Below, piece after piece: positions 5,543-16,631 of a DNA stretch of 16,740 nt (positions are counted from its first letter, which is position 1; every line of letters begins with the position of its first letter). Source of the DNA: a bacterium. GTDB lineage: Bacteria; T1Sed10-126. The stretch lies in the NCBI GenBank assembly GCA_003557545.1, contig PWOD01000033.1:1-16740 (forward strand), read 5' to 3'. Both the position numbers and the translations under genes were made by a program. Below the pieces are notes generated by a model. It was not told the DNA's origin, made no database searches, and worked only from the letters and a program-made list of their open reading frames with translations.

Positions 5543-5576
5543 TCTGTAAATCGTGTTACAAAGGAGATTTTTGCTG

Positions 5577-7373
5577 ATGAATTACAGAGCGGTGGTTGTT
5601 AGCTGGTGGAGCCTGGTAATCTGTTTGACAGTAACTTTTGGCCCGGCAGCTCCCGGGTGGGCCGGATCGATTGAATTGGAGCCTATTGTGATAGTCGACC
5701 ACCAGGAAAGAGGTTGGGGAGAGGATGATTTTTCGGTTAACCGGCGAATTATTGATCAAACTGAAATAACTCAATCAGGAGCCAGGGACCTGGGCGAGCT
5801 ATTGAACTTAATTGCCGGCAGCAGTTTGATGTCTGAGTCAGTTTTTGGTGGTCGGACAGTTGGCCAGGGGAGAGTCAAGTTGCGGGGGAATAATCCGCTG
5901 ATAATGGTTGATGGCCGGCCGGTGACCATGGAGCTGTTTAACTGTGTGATAAATAATCAGTTGAGTTTGAGCGGGGTGGAAAGGATTGAAGTAACCCGTG
6001 GTGCGGAGGCGGTATTAAGTGGCGCCGATGCGCTGGGCGGGGTCGTTAATATTGTGACTGAACGTCCGGCTGATTACCGTTCCAGAGTTTCAAAAAAGGC
6101 CGGGAGTAATAGTTCATTTGCCGGGGCGGTGGAAAGTTCGGGTGGTGGAGCAGTTGGTTATTATTCGCTGGGTTATCAGTATAAAACAACCGATGGTCAC
6201 CTGGAAAATAGTGAATTAAGATCAGGTGACTATTTTTTGAAATTAGGCTATTTTCTATCGGACGCAGTGGAGTTGGAATTGACCACCCAGTATTATGACG
6301 GTGAATATGAAGATCCGCTGAACCGGGGAGCCGAGCAGCGGTGGGAGAAACAACGGGCCGGATTTGATCTAAAAGTTGACGGAGTCTGGGAAAATCACCG
6401 GGTTGTTTTACAGGGGTATTATAATTCAGGTGAGCATCAACGTTATTTAATCGACACCGGAACCTTAGATTTTCATACTCGTGATGAGATGACCGGGGTG
6501 CGAGCCCGGCAGAGCAGCGACTTTGGAAGGTTGAAGCTGATTTATGGATTTGATTATCGGGAATATGGTGGCAGAAGGTTGGACCCGGCGGATGGTTCGA
6601 GACTGTTCAAGCGATTAGAAAATGAGCGTGCCATCTACGGGATGGTCAATCGGGAACTGGGACAGAATACAGAGGTTGTGGTTGGTGGAAGATACAATGA
6701 CAACAGTGTTTATGGGGAGAGATTTTTTTCTAAGTTAGGAATCAAACGAAAATTAGGGGAGCAGTTAAGCGGTCGGATCTCCTATAACCGGGGATTCAGG
6801 AACCCATCAATTATGCAGCTTAATAATAATCCTGATTTACAGCCGGAGATTGCAGATAACTATGAGCTTGGGATTGAATATAATCGGGGAGGAAAATGGC
6901 AGGCCGGGCTGGCACTGTTCCGGGTTGAGGGGGAGGATCGAATTGCCGGTTTTCCACCGGAAAACCAGGAGGAATACCGGCATTATGGTGTTGAGTTTGA
7001 AGTTACCGGTAATCTATCAAACAATCTCCGGGGAGGGTTGACCTATAGCTGGATCGATCCTGAGGATGACACAGTTTTTCAGTTTGAAAACCGGGTCACG
7101 GGTCAGTTGAGTTACCGGCGGAAAAACTGGTTGGTATATCTGGCCGGTGAGTATGTGAACCGGCTGTATGCTGAAGCAGAGAGTCAAAACCGGCTGCCCG
7201 ATTATTTAAAACTGGATCTGCGAACAAGTTATCAGCCACCCGGTGGGATAAGCTATATTGTGGAGGTGGATAATCTGCTGGATGTGGATTATGCCACCCA
7301 GACTTATGATGATGGAACAAGGATGTACAATAGCGGTTTAACAGTTTTTGGTGGGATAGAGGTGGAGTTTTGA
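5577..7373 (+). CDS. TonB-dependent outer-membrane receptor
   Basis: A gated 22-strand barrel that binds a scarce ligand at the cell surface and imports it to the periplasm using TonB energy. The 598-residue product has a Sec signal peptide (charged start, hydrophobic core, likely cleavage after GWA at residue 29), a TonB-box-like segment EPIVIV (35-40), a plug domain (about 55-160) with VDGRPV (111-116) and VERIEVTRGAEAVLSGADAL, then many alternating aromatic beta-strands and a terminal Phe typical of outer-membrane barrels. Its length is close to BtuB (vitamin B12 receptor). The ATG at 5577 is chosen because AAGGAG lies at 5561-5566; an upstream GTG at 5553 precedes that site. The ECF transporter genes follow directly, so receptor and transporter probably share a ligand. 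Corrinoid, metal complex or another cofactor are all possible; the sequence does not decide. Confidence 0.93.
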   Translation: MNYRAVVVSWWSLVICLTVTFGPAAPGWAGSIELEPIVIVDHQERGWGEDDFSVNRRIIDQTEITQSGARDLGELLNLIAGSSLMSESVFGGRTVGQGRVKLRGNNPLIMVDGRPVTMELFNCVINNQLSLSGVERIEVTRGAEAVLSGADALGGVVNIVTERPADYRSRVSKKAGSNSSFAGAVESSGGGAVGYYSLGYQYKTTDGHLENSELRSGDYFLKLGYFLSDAVELELTTQYYDGEYEDPLNRGAEQRWEKQRAGFDLKVDGVWENHRVVLQGYYNSGEHQRYLIDTGTLDFHTRDEMTGVRARQSSDFGRLKLIYGFDYREYGGRRLDPADGSRLFKRLENERAIYGMVNRELGQNTEVVVGGRYNDNSVYGERFFSKLGIKRKLGEQLSGRISYNRGFRNPSIMQLNNNPDLQPEIADNYELGIEYNRGGKWQAGLALFRVEGEDRIAGFPPENQEEYRHYGVEFEVTGNLSNNLRGGLTYSWIDPEDDTVFQFENRVTGQLSYRRKNWLVYLAGEYVNRLYAEAESQNRLPDYLKLDLRTSYQPPGGISYIVEVDNLLDVDYATQTYDDGTRMYNSGLTVFGGIEVEF

Positions 7374-7375
7374 AG

Positions 7376-7942
7376 ATGTTTTCAGCCAGTGATAAAGGCA
7401 GCTCGAAAAGTTTTGGTTCGATCACCAACCGGCAGCTCGTGGTGGCGGCGACGGCGATCGCCCTGGGAACGATAATCCCGTTCCTGTTTCATGGGATCAA
7501 AGGTGCGGGACCGCTGTTTTTGCCGCTCTATTATCCGGTTATTATAGCGAGTTTTTTATTGACGCCATCGCTGGCTGCCCTGACCGGTTTATTAACTCCG
7601 GTAAGCTCAACAGTTTTAACCGGAATGCCGCCGATAAACCCACCGATAGTACTGATAATGATGATTGAGCTGTTAGTGCTGGCCGGCAGTATAGCAGTGA
7701 TCCACAGGCGATTTGCGGTTAGTCACCGGACAACAATTTTTCTGGCAGTTTTAGTCAACCGGGTTGTCTATGCGGGGATGCTGGTAGTCTTCGCCGAGCT
7801 TTTCCGGCTTCCGGCCTTTTCTTTCAGCCTGGTTAGAGTTATCAGCAGCTGGCCCGGATTATTGATAATTTTGTTGATTTTACCGGCTTTATCCCGGGAG
7901 ATTGAGAAACGTTACAGGGAGAGCGATTTTTATGCTGAGTAA
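7376..7942 (+). CDS. ECF transporter S component (substrate-binding membrane protein)
   Basis: Small integral membrane protein (188 residues, about five to six hydrophobic segments) expected to bind the imported ligand in the inner membrane and dock on the EcfT/EcfA module. Evidence is the hydrophobic profile, the length usual for S components, and the position two genes before EcfT and EcfA. The stretch around residues 45-90, with GPLFLPLYYP, GLLTPVSS and LTGMPP, is a conserved-looking loop/helix region that I associate with an uncharacterised ECF S-component family; assignment to a substrate (for example a corrinoid or its precursor) is not possible here. ATG 7376 is preceded by GGAG at 7364-7367 with 8-base spacing; it lies 2 bases after the receptor stop codon, so translation is probably coupled. 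Confidence 0.75.
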   Translation: MFSASDKGSSKSFGSITNRQLVVAATAIALGTIIPFLFHGIKGAGPLFLPLYYPVIIASFLLTPSLAALTGLLTPVSSTVLTGMPPINPPIVLIMMIELLVLAGSIAVIHRRFAVSHRTTIFLAVLVNRVVYAGMLVVFAELFRLPAFSFSLVRVISSWPGLLIILLILPALSREIEKRYRESDFYAE

Positions 7943-8528
7943 GCAGCGTGATTATTTTAATCGCCGGGCGGCGGAATGGTCGGATGATCTATCAGCGGCA
8001 CAGGCGGAGAGTCTGGAGGAGATAATGACTGTTTTGTCACCGGAAACAGGGGAAAAGATCCTTGACCTGGGATGTGGTGCAGGGATTCTTACTGAGCGGT
8101 TGACGCGGGGGATGACCGGTGAGGAGAGAAAGCTGGTGAGTGTTGATCTGGCGGAAGAGATGGTGAAACGAGTTCGCCGGGACTATTCCCGGTTAAGTTC
8201 TGCAGTCTGTGGAGCAGCAGAAGAGCTACCCCTGGCTGCCAGGAGTTTTGATCGGATAATCTGTTTTTCAGTTTTTCCCCATTTTTCCAGTCCCCGGTCG
8301 GTGCTGGAGGAGATCAACCGGTTGTTAGTACCGGGTGGTCGAGCTGTTATTGCACATGTCGATTCAAGGCAGCAGTTAAATCAGTTTCACAGCAACTTAA
8401 AGGGAGTTGTCAGCGCTGATATTTTGCCGCCGCTGGAGGAACTGCAGGAGATTATACAAGCAGCCGGACTGAGGGTTTTACAGATGGACGAAAGGGAGAA
8501 TTTATATCTTGCTGTCTTCGGAAAATAA
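7932..8528 (+). CDS. Class I SAM-dependent methyltransferase within the ECF operon
   Basis: A Rossmann-fold methyltransferase of 198 residues. The SAM-binding motif I ILDLGCGAG is at 43-51, the acidic residue after strand 2 is Asp72 (VSVDLAEEM), motif II-like FDRIICFSVF lies at 106-115, and LLVPGGRAVI at 131-140 is the usual strand-5 region. The C-terminal part contains HVDSRQQLNQFH (142-153), which probably shapes the acceptor site. The substrate is unknown. The ATG at 7932 has AGGGAGAG at 7916-7923; an upstream TTG at 7902 is less likely. It overlaps the S-component gene by 11 bases and EcfT by 20 bases, so it is firmly part of the transporter operon. This suggests it modifies the imported ligand or a related metabolite, as opposed to being a housekeeping RNA methylase. 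BioC-like function cannot be excluded. Confidence 0.8.
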   Translation: MLSKQRDYFNRRAAEWSDDLSAAQAESLEEIMTVLSPETGEKILDLGCGAGILTERLTRGMTGEERKLVSVDLAEEMVKRVRRDYSRLSSAVCGAAEELPLAARSFDRIICFSVFPHFSSPRSVLEEINRLLVPGGRAVIAHVDSRQQLNQFHSNLKGVVSADILPPLEELQEIIQAAGLRVLQMDERENLYLAVFGK

Positions 8529-9138
8529 GCTGCAGTTGATCGTTAGATTCACTGTTTTTTTAATCTTGCTGGGCGGGTTTATTATCAGCCCCCTGCGGTT
8601 TTTTTACCTGCCGCTGCTGCTGCTCGGGCTGGCGTTATGTAGCTTTCCGGTGGAGTTGAAAAAATTCTTTCGAAAGCAGCTATTTCTGCTGGTTATCGGC
8701 TTTTCACATCTGTTTCTGTTTGGTTATTTTGTGATCGATAGAGTTTTTTTGGGTGGTGGTCCGATTTTTCAAACCGAGCATTTTATAGTGGTTTTGAACC
8801 TGTTTTATAGAACGGCCGGTTCTTACCTTGTCGTGAGTTTTTTCAACAGCCTCAATAGTTTTTCAGAGCTATTAGCGACGCTGAAGATTTTGCGATTCCC
8901 GCCGTTGATTATTATGTTGTTTACAATAAGTTACCGGTTAGTGCATATTTTTGACAGCCGGGTCCGTCAGATGTTGATAGCCTACAGGTTGCGGACCGGG
9001 GGTAAACAGAGGCCAGCGCTATTTTTACAGATGCTGAAGAGCGCCCTGTTTAAGTCGTTTGCCAGTGGTAACAGAATAACCGGGGCGTTGAAAAGCCGTA
9101 ATTTTCACTCCAACCTGGATTTCAGGAAGATCAAATGA
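8509..9138 (+). CDS. ecfT: ECF transporter T component (CbiQ/EcfT-like)
   Basis: Transmembrane coupling subunit that links the S component to the ATPase. The 209-residue protein has about four to five hydrophobic helices in its first 150 residues and a basic cytoplasmic C-terminal region. The two coupling-helix motifs of the family, normally built around Ala-Arg-Gly, are degenerate: AYRLRTGG (158-165) and ALKSRNF (193-199, where ARGF/ARGY is usual). The start is TTG at 8509, supported by GGGAG at 8494-8498 and overlapping the methyltransferase end by 20 bases. It is followed by EcfA with a 4-base ATGA overlap. Identification rests on length, topology, degenerate motifs and context together. 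Confidence 0.8.
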   Translation: MLSSENKLQLIVRFTVFLILLGGFIISPLRFFYLPLLLLGLALCSFPVELKKFFRKQLFLLVIGFSHLFLFGYFVIDRVFLGGGPIFQTEHFIVVLNLFYRTAGSYLVVSFFNSLNSFSELLATLKILRFPPLIIMLFTISYRLVHIFDSRVRQMLIAYRLRTGGKQRPALFLQMLKSALFKSFASGNRITGALKSRNFHSNLDFRKIK

Positions 9139-9824
9139 TTGAATTAAAAAAAGTTAATCTATTTTTTAACCCGGGCAAACATGTTTTGAAAGATATTGAG
9201 TTGACGATTCAAGCCGGCTGCTCCACGGCCCTGCTGGGGGCGAACGGCAGCGGAAAAACCTCGTTGTTATGGGTGATCGCGGGGATCTATAAATATAAGG
9301 GAGAAATTATTTTCCGGAATCAGGGTAGGTTAAACGGGGGGAGTAAGGAGTTACGGGATAAAACTGGGGTGGTTTTTCAAAATCCGGATGAGCAGCTGTT
9401 TATGCCGACGGTTCGTGAAGAGCTGGCGTTGACCCTGTTGCAAAAACATGATCGAGTTGACGAGGCTTTAATAGGTGAGATTATGGAGCGGTTTGGAATT
9501 GTAGAGCTGGCTGATAGAGCCCCCCATAAACTGTCGGAGGGGGAGAAAAAGAAGGTGGCGCTGTCGGCGGCGCTGGTGGCGAAACCGGAGCTGTTAATTT
9601 TAGATGAGCCGACCTCAGATCTTGACCTGCCGGGGAAAAAAGAGTTTTTAAAGTTGATTAACTCCCTGGAGCAGACCCGATTGGTTGCCACCCATGATTT
9701 AGAGTTCGCCCGAAACTGTTGTGACCGGGGAGTTATTCTGGAGTCGGGAAGGGTTGTGGCCGAGGGAAAGTTTGAGGAGTTGATCGACAATCGCCGGTTA
9801 CTGGAAAGCTGCGGGTTAATTTAA
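9135..9824 (+). CDS. ecfA: ECF transporter ATPase (CbiO/EcfA-like)
   Basis: Cytoplasmic ABC ATPase that powers uptake. All motifs are present in 229 residues: Walker A GANGSGKT (35-42), Q-loop VVFQNPDEQLF (79-89, the NPD form is characteristic of ECF/CbiO ATPases), signature LSEGE (133-137, LSGGQ is the ABC norm), Walker B LLILDEP (153-159), D-loop SDLD (161-164) and switch His187 (ATHD). A single ATPase gene suggests a homodimer and a dedicated (group I type) transporter and not a shared EcfAA' module. ATG 9135 overlaps the ecfT stop (ATGA), with AGGAAG at 9123-9128. It is the last gene of the operon and ends 18 bases from the converging tonB gene. Confidence 0.92.
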   Translation: MIELKKVNLFFNPGKHVLKDIELTIQAGCSTALLGANGSGKTSLLWVIAGIYKYKGEIIFRNQGRLNGGSKELRDKTGVVFQNPDEQLFMPTVREELALTLLQKHDRVDEALIGEIMERFGIVELADRAPHKLSEGEKKKVALSAALVAKPELLILDEPTSDLDLPGKKEFLKLINSLEQTRLVATHDLEFARNCCDRGVILESGRVVAEGKFEELIDNRRLLESCGLI

Positions 9825-9842
9825 TGAGTGTGTGGGAGCGGT

Positions 9843-10598
9843 TCAGTCCAGTTGAAACTGTACGGGGATTTTTATTATTAGACTGCGGTCGGTTAGTCCG
9901 GCCGGCAGCGGTGGCCAGGGCTGGGAGCTTTGCAGGGCACGGCGGGCTGCTTGATCGAGTTGTTGGTGGCCGCTGGACTGATGAAGCTGCAGCTGGTTGA
10001 TCCGGCCAGTAGAGGTAATCTCCAGTTGGAAAACGGTTGTTCCCTGCTGGCCTTTTCGGGCGGCTCGGGAAGGATAGGAAAGTTGTGAGCGGATCTTTTC
10101 AATAAGAGTTGCCGTGTAACTGGCGAGCAACTGCTCTTCCGAATCAGCGCTGGCTGATCTGCTGGTTGGCGGAGCTGCTGAACTGCCGCTGGCAGTCTGA
10201 ACAGTAGAGCTGGATGGTGGTGGTTTAGTCCGCTGTCGGGCGGCTGTTTGTGGTTCTGCTTGGGGGATAGTTGGTGGGTCGGGTAAGCGGTTAGGTGGTT
10301 GCTGAGCGGGCGGGTTGATTTTCGATGATCGTTTAGATTTGTCCGGGGAAAGTTCAGTTTCAGGCATATCGATGAAATTAAGATTTTGTGGTGAACGGTC
10401 TGAGTTTAAGTTGCTGATTGTTGTAGATTTGTCCGGGGCCGGGCCGGGGTTAGCGGCTGAAACAAGTTTGATTCGGGTGGAATTCGTAGAGTGGGGAGAG
10501 GATTCCCAGGAGCGGACCGGTGGTAGAGCGGAGCCGCTAAAAATAAGCAGATGGAGCAGAATTGAACCGGTCAGCGCCAGAGTTAATCTTGTTAGCAT
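9843..10598 (-). CDS. tonB: TonB energy-transducing protein
   Basis: Spans the periplasm to pass energy from an inner-membrane motor to TonB-dependent receptors. The 251-residue protein has a single N-terminal membrane anchor (about residues 7-24, Leu-rich with a His at 16 as in TonB/TolA anchors), a long Pro/Ser/Gln-rich linker (about 30-155), and a C-terminal TonB domain (about 160-251) containing LSYPSRAARKGQQG (173-186), an extended strand FQLEITSTGRI and the PWPPLP segment (227-232). The minus-strand ATG at 10598 has a GAGGTGG-type ribosome binding site (complement of 10608-10614). It converges on the receptor-ECF operon that it presumably serves. No exbB or exbD lies in this window, so the motor must be encoded elsewhere. 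Confidence 0.88.
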   Translation of the reverse strand: MLTRLTLALTGSILLHLLIFSGSALPPVRSWESSPHSTNSTRIKLVSAANPGPAPDKSTTISNLNSDRSPQNLNFIDMPETELSPDKSKRSSKINPPAQQPPNRLPDPPTIPQAEPQTAARQRTKPPPSSSTVQTASGSSAAPPTSRSASADSEEQLLASYTATLIEKIRSQLSYPSRAARKGQQGTTVFQLEITSTGRINQLQLHQSSGHQQLDQAARRALQSSQPWPPLPAGLTDRSLIIKIPVQFQLD

Positions 10599-10665: not shown

Positions 10666-10694
10666 TTGAAATCGGGGCGGAAGGGAGCTATCAT
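10666..10694 (+). promoter_or_regulatory. Predicted promoter for the threonine-synthase-like gene and nth
   Basis: TTGAAA (10666-10671) and TATCAT (10689-10694) are spaced by 17 bases, each matching five of six consensus bases. The transcript would start near 10701 with a leader of about 90 bases. Its -35 element lies only 7 bases from the -35 of the divergent tonB promoter. Confidence 0.55.
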
Positions 10695-10789
10695 TTCCTC
10701 TAATCTGGTTATCTGTTAAAATTCTGTGAATTCTATTTGTTGAGGGCTATGCAAAAGATTAAATCATTTAAAATCTGGAGAGAAGATAT

Positions 10790-11935
10790 ATGGGACTGCT
10801 GGCTGGATTATATGAACCGGATAGAAACCGTCTGTACAGGGCGGAGCCAGGACGGTTTAGAGGTGATAACGGGGAGTTTCTCAGGGCGGTTTATGATTAT
10901 CGTATACTGGCCGAGACCTTTGATGTAAAAGAAGCCTTTGCCGGCTGGGAGAACTCTGGTATGGCGGCTTTTTCCGATCTGCTTCCGGTGGAAAATCGTC
11001 GAGTTATAGAGTGCTCCGGAACGGTTACTGGTTGCAGTAAAATCTGGGGCAGACCGGGATTGTTTTTGAAGGATGACAGGACAGCAGTTTCGGGAACCAG
11101 TCTCTACCGGGGGGCCTGTCTGGCTGTGGCCCTGGCCCGTCAGAATGAGTTTTCAGGAGTCAGCTTGTTAACGGTTCAACCGGAGGTGGTGGAAGCTTTT
11201 GCCGCGGTAGCCAGAACGGCTGATCTGGCGATAAGGATTACGGTACCTGAGGAGTCCCCCGCCGGGGTTGAGGAGTTTGATTTGCCGGCCGGAGTAGAAG
11301 TTGTAAAAGTTTCCGGCCCGGTCTCAGAGGTTTTTCAGGCAAGTTGTGAACAGGCGGAAGAGGAGGGATTTTACCGGGCTACGCTGGGTGATAATCCCTA
11401 TATCCGAGAGGCTTATAAAACAATCGCTTTTGAACTTTATTTGCAGATGAACAGAGTTCCTGAACGGGTTTATTTTCAGCACTCGGAAGGGGAGATTATT
11501 GCCGGTCTGACCAGGGGGTTTGAAGAACTTAAAATTACCGGTTGGACCAGCAGTATACCACGGATATACCCGGTCATCGGGCCGGGAAGGTCCTCTCGGA
11601 TTCGCTGGTTGAGTGAGTTTAAAACAGCCCGAGGTGATTTTTCAAATCGCCGCTTGAGCAGGATGGAACAGGGACCGCTGGATCTGTATTTTGCCCTGGA
11701 AGCCCTGGAAAAAACCGGTGGTAAAGTGATCAGTTTGAGTCCTAAAGATCTGACCGAACATCGAAAAAAAACTGAGATTGAAAAAATTAATCCGGCGGAT
11801 GGCAATCAACTTCCCCCGGAACTTTTAACCGCCTTTGAGCGGACCGAACCAGCTGAATATGAGGCTGTTGTCCTGTTGGATACAGGGTTTGATTATGAAG
11901 CCGGTGAACCGGCCGGGGAGGAGCGGGATGAATAG
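10790..11935 (+). CDS. Threonine synthase-like protein lacking PLP-site residues (probable pseudoenzyme)
   Basis: A 381-residue protein that follows the threonine synthase (fold-type II PLP) pattern from end to end, by my unaided alignment. Recognisable segments include LFLKDDRTAVSG (91-102; family: YLK.E..NPTG), YRATLGDNPYIREAYKT (195-211; family: NS.NP...EG.KT), AFELYLQM (213-220) and RGFEEL (242-247). Yet the catalytic features are gone. The schiff-base segment SFKDRG appears as TSLYRG (103-108), with Leu105 where the PLP lysine should be. The S/T-G-N-T phosphate loop is replaced by TVQPEV (128-133), the glycine-rich loop by HSEGE (231-235), and the C-terminal Thr-Gly-His-Gly by DTGF (364-367). 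The reading frame is intact, so it is maintained as a protein, not a decaying gene. Start ATG 10790 has GGAG at 10777-10780. Function unknown; perhaps a binding or regulatory protein. It overlaps nth by 8 bases. Confidence 0.7.
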   Translation: MGLLAGLYEPDRNRLYRAEPGRFRGDNGEFLRAVYDYRILAETFDVKEAFAGWENSGMAAFSDLLPVENRRVIECSGTVTGCSKIWGRPGLFLKDDRTAVSGTSLYRGACLAVALARQNEFSGVSLLTVQPEVVEAFAAVARTADLAIRITVPEESPAGVEEFDLPAGVEVVKVSGPVSEVFQASCEQAEEEGFYRATLGDNPYIREAYKTIAFELYLQMNRVPERVYFQHSEGEIIAGLTRGFEELKITGWTSSIPRIYPVIGPGRSSRIRWLSEFKTARGDFSNRRLSRMEQGPLDLYFALEALEKTGGKVISLSPKDLTEHRKKTEIEKINPADGNQLPPELLTAFERTEPAEYEAVVLLDTGFDYEAGEPAGEERDE

Positions 11936-12734
11936 GCCGCGTCGCTGGTTACAGAGAAATGACAGCCGTTTGCAAGCTGTTTTAAAGTTAGTTAAAAATA
12001 AATTTGGAGTTGTCAGACGGCAGGAGGGACTGGATCTATTACAGGTGACAGTGCTGACTGTTTTAAGCCAGAACACCACCGATGTAAATGCCCGCCAGGC
12101 TTATATAGGACTGCTGGAGGAGTTTTCAAATAGTTCAGAAGAGGATTATGAAGAGCTTCAAACAACCGATATTAGGGTGGTTGATCTGGCATTTGAGCTG
12201 GGCCGACCGGATTGGGAAAGGCTGGCGGCCAGCTCGGCTGAGCGGCTGGCTGAGGCTATTGCCCCGGCCGGTTTACAGCAGGCCAAGTCCCGGACAATTC
12301 TGGCTCTGCTGAAGAAGATGGATCAACTGGCAGAAAATTTTTCTGATTTACAGGAGATATTTGAAGAGTTTTCTCACCGGCAGGCCCTGGAACTATTAAC
12401 TTCGGTCGATGGAATAGGTTTAAAAACGGCCGGGGTAGTGTTGATGGAGACAACCAGAGCAGATATCTGCCCGGTCGACACCCATATCAATAGAATTTGT
12501 CGACGGCTGCGCCTGGTGAGTTACCAGGGGCCTTCTCGGGACAAGTTATTCTGGGAGTTACAGCCGCTGATACCGGCGGGTGAGGCCTATCAGCTACATC
12601 ATGGGTTGTTGTCCTTTGGCCGGCGGATTTGTACTGCCAGAAATCCCAGCTGCTCCAGCTGTCCGGCGGCTCGAATCTGCTGGGATCTGCGAGTGGACCG
12701 GGGAGGCGAAGATTTACAGCTTAAGTTTGTTTAG
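11928..12734 (+). CDS. nth: Endonuclease III homologue (DNA glycosylase/AP lyase)
   Basis: Base-excision repair enzyme that removes oxidised pyrimidines and cuts the abasic strand. In 268 residues it has LSQNTTD (46-52; family LSAQTTD), the helix-hairpin-helix SVDGIGLKTAGVVL (159-172) with catalytic Lys166, catalytic Asp184 in PVDTHINR, and the C-terminal [4Fe-4S] site C235-x6-C242-x2-C245-x5-C251. It is somewhat longer than E. coli Nth (211 residues), mainly through insertions before the hairpin. ATG 11928 is chosen because GGGGAGGAG lies just upstream within the end of the previous gene; a longer frame reaching back to 11835 has no such support. The 8-base overlap indicates co-translation with the threonine-synthase-like gene. 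Other HhH-GPD members could be named, but both catalytic residues and the cluster support Nth. Confidence 0.88.
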   Translation: MNRPRRWLQRNDSRLQAVLKLVKNKFGVVRRQEGLDLLQVTVLTVLSQNTTDVNARQAYIGLLEEFSNSSEEDYEELQTTDIRVVDLAFELGRPDWERLAASSAERLAEAIAPAGLQQAKSRTILALLKKMDQLAENFSDLQEIFEEFSHRQALELLTSVDGIGLKTAGVVLMETTRADICPVDTHINRICRRLRLVSYQGPSRDKLFWELQPLIPAGEAYQLHHGLLSFGRRICTARNPSCSSCPAARICWDLRVDRGGEDLQLKFV

Positions 12735-12891: not shown

Positions 12892-13920
12892 ATGGTGAAA
12901 AATTACAGACTAACTGCTGAGCAGATCAATAAACTTATTGGAGCTCGTGCGGATAGATCCAGGGTTCTTGTTCCTGTGCAAAGTGAGGAGAGGGTGGAGC
13001 TGGAAGAACTGGATGAAAACTATGATGCTGCCCGGGCGGTGGATTTTTTCCGCCCGTTTGACCCGTTAAAATCATTAGTTCTCTCGCCGTTTGAAAAAGT
13101 TGCTGAATTTCCCCACAGTTCACAGACACCAGATCCAGCTGAAGTCACCTTATACGGTGTTAAGGCCTGCTCCGTAAACCATCTTCGACTGCTGGATGAG
13201 ATTATGCTGGATGAAGAGATAGCCGATAGTTTTTACCAGGCCCGGCGGGAGAAGTTATTCATTATCTCCTGTGACTGTCAAATAGTAGAAGATACATGTT
13301 TTTGTACAGAAGTTGGTCTTGCTCCCCATCCAACCACCGGTAATTTTGATCTAAATATTGCTCATATCGAGGGGGAATACCTGCTGACCGTGGGAAGTGA
13401 AAGGGGCGGTTTGTTTCTCGAGGAGATCGGGTTAGATTTAGCTGAAGCCGGTCCTGAAACAGAACAGCAGCTGGAGGAGCAGCGCCAGCGGATAGCGGAG
13501 GAGGTTGCCGAGAAGAACCAGGAGTTTGAGATCGAGGAGGATATCCACCGGTCGGTCAGGAGTAACCGGGATGCTGAAGTTTACCGGGAGAAGGCTGAGG
13601 ACTGTGTGGAATGTGGCGGTTGCAACCTGGTCTGTAGCTCCTGTTATTGTTTTTACCTGGCAGACCGACCGGAAGATCAAACAAGTTTTAGCCGGTTTCG
13701 CCTGTGGGATTCATGTCAGTTTAACGCCTATGCCCGGGTTGCCGGGGATGAATCTCCACGGCCGTTATTGATGCAGAGAATTCGCCATCGGATTGCCCAT
13801 AAATTTGATTATCTTGAGGAGTCGATGGGGTTTTATGGTTGTGTCGGTTGTGGTCGTTGTATTTCGGCCTGTCCGGCGGGAATTGATATCAGGAGTCTGC
13901 TGGCAGGTGTTAAACAGTGA
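12892..13920 (+). CDS. Sulfhydrogenase beta / AsrA-type iron-sulfur subunit
   Basis: Electron-transfer subunit of the family that includes sulfhydrogenase beta and anaerobic sulfite reductase subunit A, which normally pairs with the gamma-type flavoprotein encoded next. Length is 342 residues. The family-specific region GVKACSVNHLRLLDEIMLD (89-107) and the CDC/CFC cysteines (127, 129, 136, 138) suggest an additional metal or cluster site. Two ferredoxin-type [4Fe-4S] sites follow: C238-x2-C241-x2-C244-x3-C248 and C317-x2-C320-x2-C323-x3-CP at 327-328. A Glu/Gln-rich helical segment (about 185-215) separates the halves. No signal peptide or membrane segment, so cytoplasmic. ATG 12892 has AAGGAG at 12882-12887. 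The GTGA overlap with the next gene supports a tight pair. First gene of the operon. Confidence 0.82.
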   Translation: MVKNYRLTAEQINKLIGARADRSRVLVPVQSEERVELEELDENYDAARAVDFFRPFDPLKSLVLSPFEKVAEFPHSSQTPDPAEVTLYGVKACSVNHLRLLDEIMLDEEIADSFYQARREKLFIISCDCQIVEDTCFCTEVGLAPHPTTGNFDLNIAHIEGEYLLTVGSERGGLFLEEIGLDLAEAGPETEQQLEEQRQRIAEEVAEKNQEFEIEEDIHRSVRSNRDAEVYREKAEDCVECGGCNLVCSSCYCFYLADRPEDQTSFSRFRLWDSCQFNAYARVAGDESPRPLLMQRIRHRIAHKFDYLEESMGFYGCVGCGRCISACPAGIDIRSLLAGVKQ

Positions 13921-14738
13921 ATCCCTATCAACCGATACCGGCGGAAGTTGTTGAAATAATAGCTGAATCACCCACTATAACCACCTATCGATTTATTCCG
14001 GAACAGCCGATTCCTTTCCTGACGGGTCAATTTGTTGAACTGACTGTTCCGGGAGTGGGGGAGGCTCCATTTACCCCGTCATCAGATCCGGCTGTGGCTG
14101 ATCAGATGGAGATCAGTATTATGCATGTGGGGAAGCTTACGCAGCATCTGCGTGACAAAACTGAGGTTGGCGACATGGTGGGAATTCGCGGCCCGTACGG
14201 GCAGGGGTATCCGCTTGACGAGTTTGCCGGCAGGGAGATTTTAATTGTCGGTGGGGGGGTGGGACTGGCTCCATTGAGAAGTTTGATCTATGCGCTGCTG
14301 GGAGAGATCGAGCGGTTTAAGGCTGTGAAAATTAAATTTGGGGCCCGGACTCCCGGAGATATAATTTATAAGGCTGAGGTTGAAGATTGGTTGAACAGTG
14401 ACGAGCTGGAGTTAGAGCTGACAGTTGACTCAGATGAAGATTATCCTGATTGGGAGGGGAATGTTGGGGTTGTTACCACAATCATGGATGATCCTGACCT
14501 GGAAATAGATAGTGGGGTTGCAGTGGCCTGTGGACCTCCAATAATGATGAAATTTGCCACCCAGAAATTTCTTTCTATGGGATATTCACCGGAACAGATA
14601 TATCTCTCGATGGAAAAAAATATGTCCTGTGGAATCGGTAAATGTGGTCATTGTGGTATTGGTCCTTATTACGTCTGCAAAGATGGACCGGTAATGACCT
14701 ATGACATGCTGGAGAAATACAGTGAAGTTTTTGAATAA
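13917..14738 (+). CDS. Sulfhydrogenase gamma / AsrB-type FAD, NAD(P)-binding subunit
   Basis: Flavoprotein of the ferredoxin-NADP reductase fold expected to exchange electrons between NAD(P)H and iron-sulfur clusters. In 273 residues: FAD-binding barrel with GQFVELTVPGVGEAPFTPSS (37-56), nucleotide-binding domain with VGGGVGLAPLRS (111-122) and VACGPPIMM (203-211), and a C-terminal [2Fe-2S] site C238-x4-C243-x2-C246-x7-C254 as in PyrK and sulfhydrogenase gamma. GTG at 13917 overlaps the previous stop by four bases (GTGA); AGGTG at 13904-13908 is the ribosome binding site. It pairs with the preceding beta subunit; together they form an NAD(P)H input/output module. Which nucleotide is used is not evident. 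Confidence 0.87.
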   Translation: MNPYQPIPAEVVEIIAESPTITTYRFIPEQPIPFLTGQFVELTVPGVGEAPFTPSSDPAVADQMEISIMHVGKLTQHLRDKTEVGDMVGIRGPYGQGYPLDEFAGREILIVGGGVGLAPLRSLIYALLGEIERFKAVKIKFGARTPGDIIYKAEVEDWLNSDELELELTVDSDEDYPDWEGNVGVVTTIMDDPDLEIDSGVAVACGPPIMMKFATQKFLSMGYSPEQIYLSMEKNMSCGIGKCGHCGIGPYYVCKDGPVMTYDMLEKYSEVFE

Positions 14739-14761
14739 TAAACGGTTAGGAGCTGGTGGTT

Positions 14762-15250
14762 TTGACTGAACCGGCCCTGTTGGTTGATCTTGAGATTTGC
14801 CGGCGCTGTCCTGAATGCGTGGTGGATTGTGATTATTTTTATCATCCCTACAACAATGGGATTACCAAGCTGCGTGAGCAGGGGACCTGGGAGGAGATCT
14901 GTCGCCGTTGTAAGGAAGCTAACTGTATAGAATCCTGTCCCCAGGATGCCCTGCAGAAGGCGCCCGGGACCGAGCGGGTGGAACGGGCCAGTATGCTCTG
15001 TATCCGCTGTCGGACCTGTACCATAGCCTGTCCGTTTGGAACGATGGACAGGGATATCCTGGCTTTTAAACATTCCGGCTGTGATCTTTGTAGACCCCGG
15101 TTACAGCCGGGCGACAAACCGGTTTGTGTGGAGAGCTGTCCGTATGATGCGCTTGACTACGCTGAGTTTGAAGAGGATCCGGAAGCCGATATACATTCTG
15201 TTAAACCTGGATTTTTGGTTCATGCTGTTAACTGGAAGGAAGATAAATAG
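14762..15250 (+). CDS. Four-cluster polyferredoxin subunit (HycB/CooF-like)
   Basis: Electron-wire protein of 162 residues with sixteen cysteines in four groups: 13/16/19/23, 47/50/55/59, 80/83/86/90 and 107/110/122/126. This is the arrangement of HycB, CooF and DMSO-reductase B type subunits and predicts four [4Fe-4S] clusters. It probably links the flavin/beta module to the NuoB-type small subunit encoded two genes downstream. The TTG at 14762 is preferred because AGGAG (14748-14752) sits 9 bases before it; a GTG at 14756 is only 3 bases from that site and would add two residues. No membrane segment. Its stop (TAG, 15248-15250) overlaps a GTG start for the next gene. Confidence 0.85.
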   Translation: MTEPALLVDLEICRRCPECVVDCDYFYHPYNNGITKLREQGTWEEICRRCKEANCIESCPQDALQKAPGTERVERASMLCIRCRTCTIACPFGTMDRDILAFKHSGCDLCRPRLQPGDKPVCVESCPYDALDYAEFEEDPEADIHSVKPGFLVHAVNWKEDK

Positions 15251-16191
15251 TGATGGAGAACTGGTTGTTATGGTCGGTTTATCTGTTAATTTTTCCCGGT
15301 ATAGGATTTGCCATGGTGGTCGGGATACTGGCCAGTTGGGTTGATCGGAAGGTAACGGCAAGAATCCAGTTCCGCGTCGGCCCACCGTTATTGCAGCCGG
15401 TTTATGATCTAGTTAAACTGGTGGGGAAAGAGGTTGTGATTCCGGTATCAGCCCAGCCGGGGGTCTTTTTGCTGGCACCGCTGGTTGGTTTTGTGGCGGC
15501 CGCACTTTCAGCAGTTATCCTTGGGGTAAATAATTTTCTCGGCCAGAGTTTCCTGGCCGATCTAATTGTGCTTGTTTATCTATTATTAATTCCATCTCTG
15601 GCAATAATTGTGGGAGGATCAGCTTCTGGCAACCCCCACTCTTCAATCGGCGCTTCCCGTGAGATGAAACTGGTTATGGCCTATGAACTTCCACTTATAC
15701 TGGCTATAGTGACGGTGATTATCAATGCGGGGTTCAGTCTTGATCTGGCGGTTATTTCGGCCGAACCTCAAATAAGTTCGATCTCCGGGGTTCTGGCCTT
15801 TATCGTCTCTTTGATCTGTATCCAGGCCAAGCTGGCCGAGGTTCCGTTTGATATTCCAGAGGCTGAAACTGAGTTGATGGAGGGTCCGCTGCTGGAGTAT
15901 TCAGGACTGCCGCTGGCGATATTTAAGGCGACGCACATGTTGCTGCTCTATCTACTTCCCTTATACTTGATAACGATTTTTCTGGGGGGTATCGGAACCG
16001 GTTATGGAATTATCTGGGGAGGATTAAAATATCTGTTGATTATTGTGCTGATTATTTTGATTAAAAATACTAATCCACGTTTGCGGATCGACCAGGCCGT
16101 AGTGTTTTTTTGGACCTGGATGACAGCGCTTGCCGGGCTGGCAGTGTTGCTGGCCGGCGTGGGTAATATTTATGGGATTGGTTGGCTATGA
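15250..16191 (+). CDS. NuoH/EchB-type membrane subunit
   Basis: Membrane subunit that anchors the soluble arm of complex I and of energy-converting hydrogenases and carries part of the ion-translocation path. The 313-residue protein is strongly hydrophobic with about eight membrane segments. Family motifs are WVDRKVTARIQFRVGPP (30-46), SREMKLVMAYELPL (136-149) and the acidic loop AEVPFDIPEAETELMEGP (196-213), where NuoH has a similar Pro-Phe-Asp-Leu-Pro-Glu-Ala-Glu stretch. GTG 15250 has AAGGA at 15236-15240 (9-base spacing); ATG 15253 is the alternative and removes one residue. Only one membrane subunit is seen before the NuoB gene; an antiporter-like (NuoL/EchA) subunit would have to be outside the window. 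Confidence 0.9.
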   Translation: MMENWLLWSVYLLIFPGIGFAMVVGILASWVDRKVTARIQFRVGPPLLQPVYDLVKLVGKEVVIPVSAQPGVFLLAPLVGFVAAALSAVILGVNNFLGQSFLADLIVLVYLLLIPSLAIIVGGSASGNPHSSIGASREMKLVMAYELPLILAIVTVIINAGFSLDLAVISAEPQISSISGVLAFIVSLICIQAKLAEVPFDIPEAETELMEGPLLEYSGLPLAIFKATHMLLLYLLPLYLITIFLGGIGTGYGIIWGGLKYLLIIVLIILIKNTNPRLRIDQAVVFFWTWMTALAGLAVLLAGVGNIYGIGWL

Positions 16192-16631
16192 GCTGGAAAG
16201 ATCGGTTAGCTCTGTGGGGGATAAAACGTTCTCCCTGGGTCTATCATATTAATACGGGGGCCTGTAATAACTGTGATATTGAAATACTTGACGCATTGTG
16301 TCCCCGCTATGATGCTGAGCGGTTTGGCATAAAACTGGTTGGCTCTCCCCGGCATGCTGATGTCTTACTGGTTTCAGGACCGGTTACCAGGCATAGCGAA
16401 CAGCCCCTGAGAGATGCTTATGAAGCAACACCGAAACCCTGTGCCGTGATTGCTTTCGGGGCCTGTGGATGTTCCAGTGGAATTTTTAAAGATGGTGTAA
16501 ATGTTAACGGGACGGTTGATCGAGTGATCAGGGAAGAGGATCCTGAGGCAGTGATAACCTATTTGCCCGGATGTCCGCCAAAACCTGAAGCGATATTGTC
16601 AGCAGCGTTAAAGACACTGGAGGCGTTATGA
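16188..16631 (+). CDS. NuoB/EchC/HycG-type small subunit
   Basis: Small subunit carrying the [4Fe-4S] cluster nearest the active-site subunit in group 4 [NiFe] hydrogenases and complex I relatives. In 147 residues the cluster ligands are Cys26 and Cys29 (GACNNCDIE), Cys93 (FGACGCSSG) and Cys129 (LPGCPPKPE). The GACNxCDIE form resembles HycG/EchC/MbhJ more than NuoB. ATG 16188 overlaps the preceding stop (ATGA); the longer TTG start at 16182 is unnecessary. The next gene again overlaps by ATGA. Whether the complex is a hydrogenase depends on the large subunit, not visible here. Confidence 0.88.
   Translation: MSWKDRLALWGIKRSPWVYHINTGACNNCDIEILDALCPRYDAERFGIKLVGSPRHADVLLVSGPVTRHSEQPLRDAYEATPKPCAVIAFGACGCSSGIFKDGVNVNGTVDRVIREEDPEAVITYLPGCPPKPEAILSAALKTLEAL

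Follow-up and report, generated by a model that had tools for sequence, protein, structure and literature searches.

A gene of the candidate phylum T1Sed10-126 encodes a threonine synthase-like protein that is very probably a pseudoenzyme. The gene occupies positions 10790 to 11935 (plus strand) of the window, the 16,740-nucleotide stretch of contig PWOD01000033.1 analyzed here, and its 381-residue product has lost the lysine to which PLP is attached in all intact relatives compared. We consider it probable, as the account that best fits the evidence, that this PLP fold-type II pseudoenzyme is specific to the phylum and has been retained to serve, without catalysis, as a binding or regulatory subunit. 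A non-catalytic partner seems more probable than an enzyme because the PLP lysine is lost, yet the protein appears to be kept by selection in both known species. The comparisons below point to a real pseudoenzyme of a well-known fold that is under selection, restricted to the phylum and of putative function.

The gene and its ortholog in Candidatus Busufiota

The open reading frame runs from ATG to TAG with no internal stop, and a ribosome binding site, GGAGAG (10777 to 10782, plus strand), can be read directly with the ATG 7 bases downstream. The intact frame and good ribosome binding site of a preliminary description are therefore confirmed; the good promoter that it also named corresponds to one sigma-70-like site, TTGAAA-17-TATCAT (10666 to 10694, plus strand), which is a consensus match from a scan. 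Codon usage and GC3 resemble those of neighboring genes.

The contig belongs to a 2.15-Mb draft genome (G000; completeness 91.9%), and GC content of the window is near 48%. The GTDB phylum T1Sed10-126, or Candidatus Busufiota, comprises 2 genomes of 2.15-2.2 Mb from hypersaline soda lake sediment (PMC11382960), and the GC content of the window agrees with this placement. The second of these genomes (G001, MAG T1Sed10_126) contains an ortholog (contig PWHN01000058.1, locus L002, 1501-2601) with an intact frame, 40% (39.8%) identity to the window protein, the same start MGLLAGLYEP, and GAGGT ahead of the matching ATG. Three overlapping sweeps of 386, 385 and 380 genomes yielded no ortholog beyond the phylum, the best match outside it (1.9e-31) being an intact enzyme, and a scan of 84,980 species' genomes with two peptide patterns matched only the ortholog already known. 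Viral contigs contained no relative of the pair and one CysK-like match for the intact family. In trees the two orthologs are monophyletic (100/100) on a long branch. Grouping them with the phylum's own intact paralog costs 0.47 log units (p-AU 0.49), a sisterhood neither supported nor rejected; duplication within the phylum is thus a possible but unproven origin.

Descent and fold

The window protein matches Pfam PALP with E=1.3e-20 and 74.4 bits (cut-off 35), which places it in that family by descent, and its ortholog scores 66.8 bits. The nearest NCBIfam models are threonine synthases (2e-20), but at 73 bits against an equivalog cut-off of 303 the protein falls below every threonine synthase equivalog threshold. 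A profile built from the two orthologs aligns to the intact subfamily with 99.9% probability over 335 columns (profile-profile comparison, hhalign) and to solved threonine synthases at 3e-9. AlphaFold models, made template-free from the two sequences, are of low confidence (mean pLDDT 40 for the window protein and 38 for its ortholog); at these values neither surface nor pocket can be mapped, and their use was limited to Foldseek ranking. Even with the weak model of the window protein, the top structures were the threonine synthases 6cgq (first, E 5.9e-9), 6nmx, 1uin and 2d1f, all with E <1e-7. Because the PALP, NCBIfam and profile-profile matches agree with this ranking, descent from threonine synthase relatives and a PLP fold-type II fold, as judged by homology, are not in doubt. 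The earlier claim that the threonine synthase pattern can be followed across the whole protein is thereby upheld. The Pfam match carries a warning for annotation pipelines, since a score so well over the cut-off labels this pseudoenzyme an enzyme.

Erosion of the cofactor site

Motif columns were judged against 49 intact relatives from many families, aligned with MAFFT and independently with hhalign. TSLYRG (residues 103-108; 11096 to 11113, plus strand) replaces SFKDRG, with Leu105 (11102-11104, plus strand) in the column of the PLP lysine. That column is lysine in 49/49 intact relatives and phenylalanine in the ortholog, so the Schiff-base lysine of the threonine synthase SFKDR motif is absent only from these two proteins. 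Leu105 itself is not conserved, as the preliminary description had supposed it might be; leucine and phenylalanine are both hydrophobic, and neither is able to form a Schiff base. We give hardly any credence to the idea that an ordinary, if divergent, threonine synthase was misaligned by eye: homology does extend along 335 columns, but the lysine column reads leucine or phenylalanine in the independent MAFFT and hhalign alignments, which refute a misalignment, and both genomes encode an intact enzyme elsewhere (L028, L029).

The asparagine loop STGNAG is replaced by TVQPEV (residues 128-133; 11171 to 11188, plus strand) and by FRDWKL in the ortholog, so that neither protein has the STGN sequence. 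Lysine and phosphate loop were both lost as first described. The other two motifs are less completely altered. The glycine loop VGDGN is HSEGE in the window protein (residues 231-235; 11480 to 11494, plus strand), as had been noted; Gly234 persists, however, and the loop of the ortholog, IGEGD, departs little from the canonical form. At the C-terminus, a change of Thr-Gly-His-Gly to Asp-Thr-Gly-Phe had been proposed in a register that is off by one; TGNG aligns with TGFD, and Thr365-Gly366, within DTGF (residues 364-367; 11879 to 11890, plus strand), is kept in both orthologs. In threonine synthase the threonine of this C-terminal Thr-Gly sits at the PLP pyridine nitrogen. The view that every PLP motif has been replaced therefore stands for the lysine and the asparagine loop and is overstated as a whole, because Thr365-Gly366 and Gly234 remain.

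Further losses add to those first listed. The four zinc-ribbon cysteines, each about 90% conserved among relatives, are all absent in both orthologs, and the window protein has a shortened ADSI substrate loop and no EPAG motif. Compared with threonine synthase (PALP, PLP fold-type II; 6cgq of B. subtilis, 1uim of T. thermophilus), the protein is alike in fold by homology, in length and in the C-terminal Thr-Gly, and differs in having no PLP lysine, STGN loop, ADSI loop or EPAG. Its catalytic motifs are thus missing by sequence in the sense of the pseudoenzyme definition of PMC10211241. Between the two orthologs, identity in motif columns (11/35) is not significantly lower than in the rest (131/324, p=0.36).

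Loss of PLP binding, the "non-PLP" part of the early proposal, is well founded on sequence, and loss of catalysis is what we infer from it. It is distinctly unlikely that the protein is an enzyme whose chemistry has migrated or needs no cofactor, or one that holds PLP through another lysine. The two orthologs do share Lys47, 94, 173 and 210, and pseudoenzymes with migrated residues are known (PMC10211241), but ordinary threonine synthases conserve Lys94 and Lys210 too, so these two are no replacements. It is because two of the four conserved lysines are such ordinary family residues that this reading loses ground, and the asparagine loop, substrate loop and EPAG motif have gone as well.

Selection and the shift of constraint

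Between the two orthologs synonymous sites are saturated (pS 0.75), dN is 0.67 and there are 0 frameshifts, as measured on two sequences; amino acid identity is 39.8% against 6.6% under random pairing. Had the branch been unconstrained over most of its length, such a pattern would not be expected. From saturated synonymous sites with dN of only 0.67, an intact frame and normal codon usage, it appears that the gene is not decaying and is kept by purifying selection in both known species, so that, on these two sequences, retention by selection accompanies the loss of catalytic motifs. The early suggestion of a repurposed, not decaying, protein is supported by an ortholog that also has no lysine, by conservation of frame and gene pair and by divergence far below neutral.

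The gene nevertheless evolves fast: between-species identity of 40% compares with 56% for the endonuclease III-like neighbor, 71% for the intact paralog, 84% for carbamate kinase and 80-84% for neighbors in the intact paralog's cluster. This rate and the long branch would suit a gene on its way to becoming a pseudogene, or one that is free of constraint, and a two-sequence comparison is compatible with very recent decay in one lineage alone. Against this, both species have a full-length frame that has persisted to synonymous saturation at 40% overall identity, with 62% in residues 1-68; start, ribosome binding site and gene pair are conserved, and codon usage is ordinary. Decay is thus very improbable.

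Constraint is unevenly distributed along the protein. The old zinc-ribbon or N-terminal segment (residues 1-68; 10790 to 10993, plus strand) is now the most conserved despite loss of its four zinc cysteines, with 62% identity between the orthologs compared to 34% elsewhere (Fisher p 4.6e-5). The intact paralogs of the two species have the reverse pattern (53% in the matching N-terminal region and 75% elsewhere). A second conserved block (55%) spans residues 198-275 (11381 to 11614, plus strand) and includes NPYxREAYKTIA and FEELxIxGW; residues 206-211 read REAYKT where intact relatives have REGKKT. The old cofactor domain, residues 93-197, is least conserved (23-28%). At the gene start, 5 of the 9 codons after the ATG of MGLLAGLYEP differ synonymously between the orthologs, and therefore conservation is at the amino acid level and an RNA-level cause is ruled out. 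Several residues are common to both orthologs and unlike the intact family: Ala208 (Gly in 49/49 relatives), Glu225 (Asp in intact proteins), Ser290, Ala336 and Gly338, as well as Tyr209, which is Lys in the closest intact subfamily. At single columns such shared derived states could be due to chance.

Because constraint has moved to residues 1-68 and 198-275, a contact function is favored, at the level of sequence comparison, over a cleft-based sensor. As a ligand sensor, the protein would bind an amino acid or phosphorylated metabolite in its eroded cleft, with no PLP involved, and signal this to a partner. Enzymes of fold-type II close on their ligand, which counts for such a role, as do the retained Thr365-Gly366 and Gly234 and the IGEGD loop of the ortholog; these same features would leave room for a phosphate-containing ligand. 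The cofactor domain is the least conserved part, however, and the cleft-lining lysine and asparagine loops differ almost completely between the two species, which is unexpected for a shared ligand site. The sensor is less likely for the latter reason, and overall we regard it as rather unlikely.

A proposed binding subunit and its candidate partners

The comparisons show that a threonine synthase-like gene lost its Schiff-base lysine, both the asparagine and the substrate loop, and its zinc-ribbon cysteines in the ancestor that the two Ca. Busufiota species share, and that selection has maintained the altered protein since then. In the preferred account, that of a non-catalytic binding or regulatory subunit, covalent PLP binding and catalysis would have gone with these parts, and the protein would act through the constrained residues 1-68 and 198-275. 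The partner would probably be another protein; such a protein-partner role is plausible but tentative, with the case for it falling a little short of even. Two candidates may be put forward: the endonuclease III-like protein of the coupled gene pair and, in a mixed dimer, the intact threonine synthase-like paralog.

The endonuclease III-like gene (11928 to 12734, plus strand) encodes an HhH-GPD glycosylase with 4Fe-4S cysteines (HhH-GPD 4.7e-11) and overlaps the stop of the pseudoenzyme gene by 8 bases. In G001 such a gene likewise lies downstream, after a 5-base gap, and the proteins are identical at 145/260 positions. The gene pair is kept although the upstream neighbors differ (tonB in the window, rnfC in G001); the G001 contig ends right after it, and the adjacency amounts to one gene pair in two genomes. 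Neither Ca. Busufiota genome yielded another Nth-like gene. It is unlikely that the pseudoenzyme assists a base-excision DNA glycosylase as an accessory subunit; if true, this would be a new use of the PLP fold outside amino acid metabolism. The endonuclease III-like protein itself scores 77 bits against the Nth cut-off of 211.7, and by eye it keeps the HhH lysine, the VDTH aspartate and the 4Fe-4S cysteines.

The intact paralog is present in both genomes (L028 on G000:C147; L029 in G001). At 27-28% identity these proteins are the closest homologs of the pseudoenzyme pair within the two genomes, and a common origin exclusive to the two groups is compatible with the tree test (p-AU 0.49); they differ in that their own PLP motifs and zinc-ribbon cysteines are all intact and in their 71% identity between species. 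In both species the paralog is flanked by carbamate kinase and an ornithine-type carbamoyltransferase (L033 1489-6902 on G000:C147; L029 269-3317 on G001:C100), with two more carbamoyltransferase genes upstream in G000, and by eye a carbamate kinase-like gene also adjoins relatives in L035 and L036. Instead of making threonine, the intact paralog may take part in a catabolic pathway of ureide or purine type. A canonical threonine synthase was found in G001 (L067) and not in the G000 draft, which may reflect mere incompleteness (91.9%).

Relation to other pseudoenzymes

Pseudoenzymes of PLP fold-type II are rarely described, and literature searches yielded plant TSB-like as the only case. The fold class of plant TSB-like is PLP fold-type II. 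It is a pseudoenzyme paralog of tryptophan synthase beta that keeps a role as TSA activator (PMC12727527), and it resembles the protein described here as a non-catalytic paralog kept for a non-enzymatic role. It differs in that two key residues are substituted there, whereas in the present protein erosion extends over the whole cofactor site and the partners are mere candidates. The window protein would accordingly be a bacterial case of a fold-type II pseudoenzyme, with more of the active site lost than the two residues of TSB-like. With lysine, asparagine loop, substrate loop and zinc ribbon gone and selection apparently persisting, it suggests that this fold can be kept without its cofactor.

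More distant parallels come from other families. The trypanosomal prozyme and the inactive deoxyhypusine synthase subunit are described as dead paralogs that partner an active enzyme (PMC5201418, PMC3663545); the prozyme, like TSB-like with TSA, is thus a precedent for the partner role proposed here. They share with the present protein the retention of a dead paralog by selection; they belong to other enzyme families, and their partner, a candidate here, is experimentally shown. M. tuberculosis Rv3778c is a PLP-family protein without the conserved lysine and presumed non-catalytic (PMC12910592), which is its likeness to the pseudoenzyme, but its kin are cysteine desulfurases and selenocysteine lyases, not threonine synthase.

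Other genes of the window

Upstream of the pseudoenzyme gene, a cluster of genes (5553-10598) encodes a TonB-dependent receptor, an ECF-type substrate component, a CbiQ-like protein, an ABC ATPase and a TonB protein, suggesting an outer-membrane plus ECF uptake locus in this candidate phylum. Downstream (12892-16631), sulfhydrogenase-like beta and gamma subunits, a ferredoxin-type protein, and NuoH-like and NuoB-like proteins are encoded in a row, as a membrane hydrogenase- or Complex I-like operon that is cut by the contig end.
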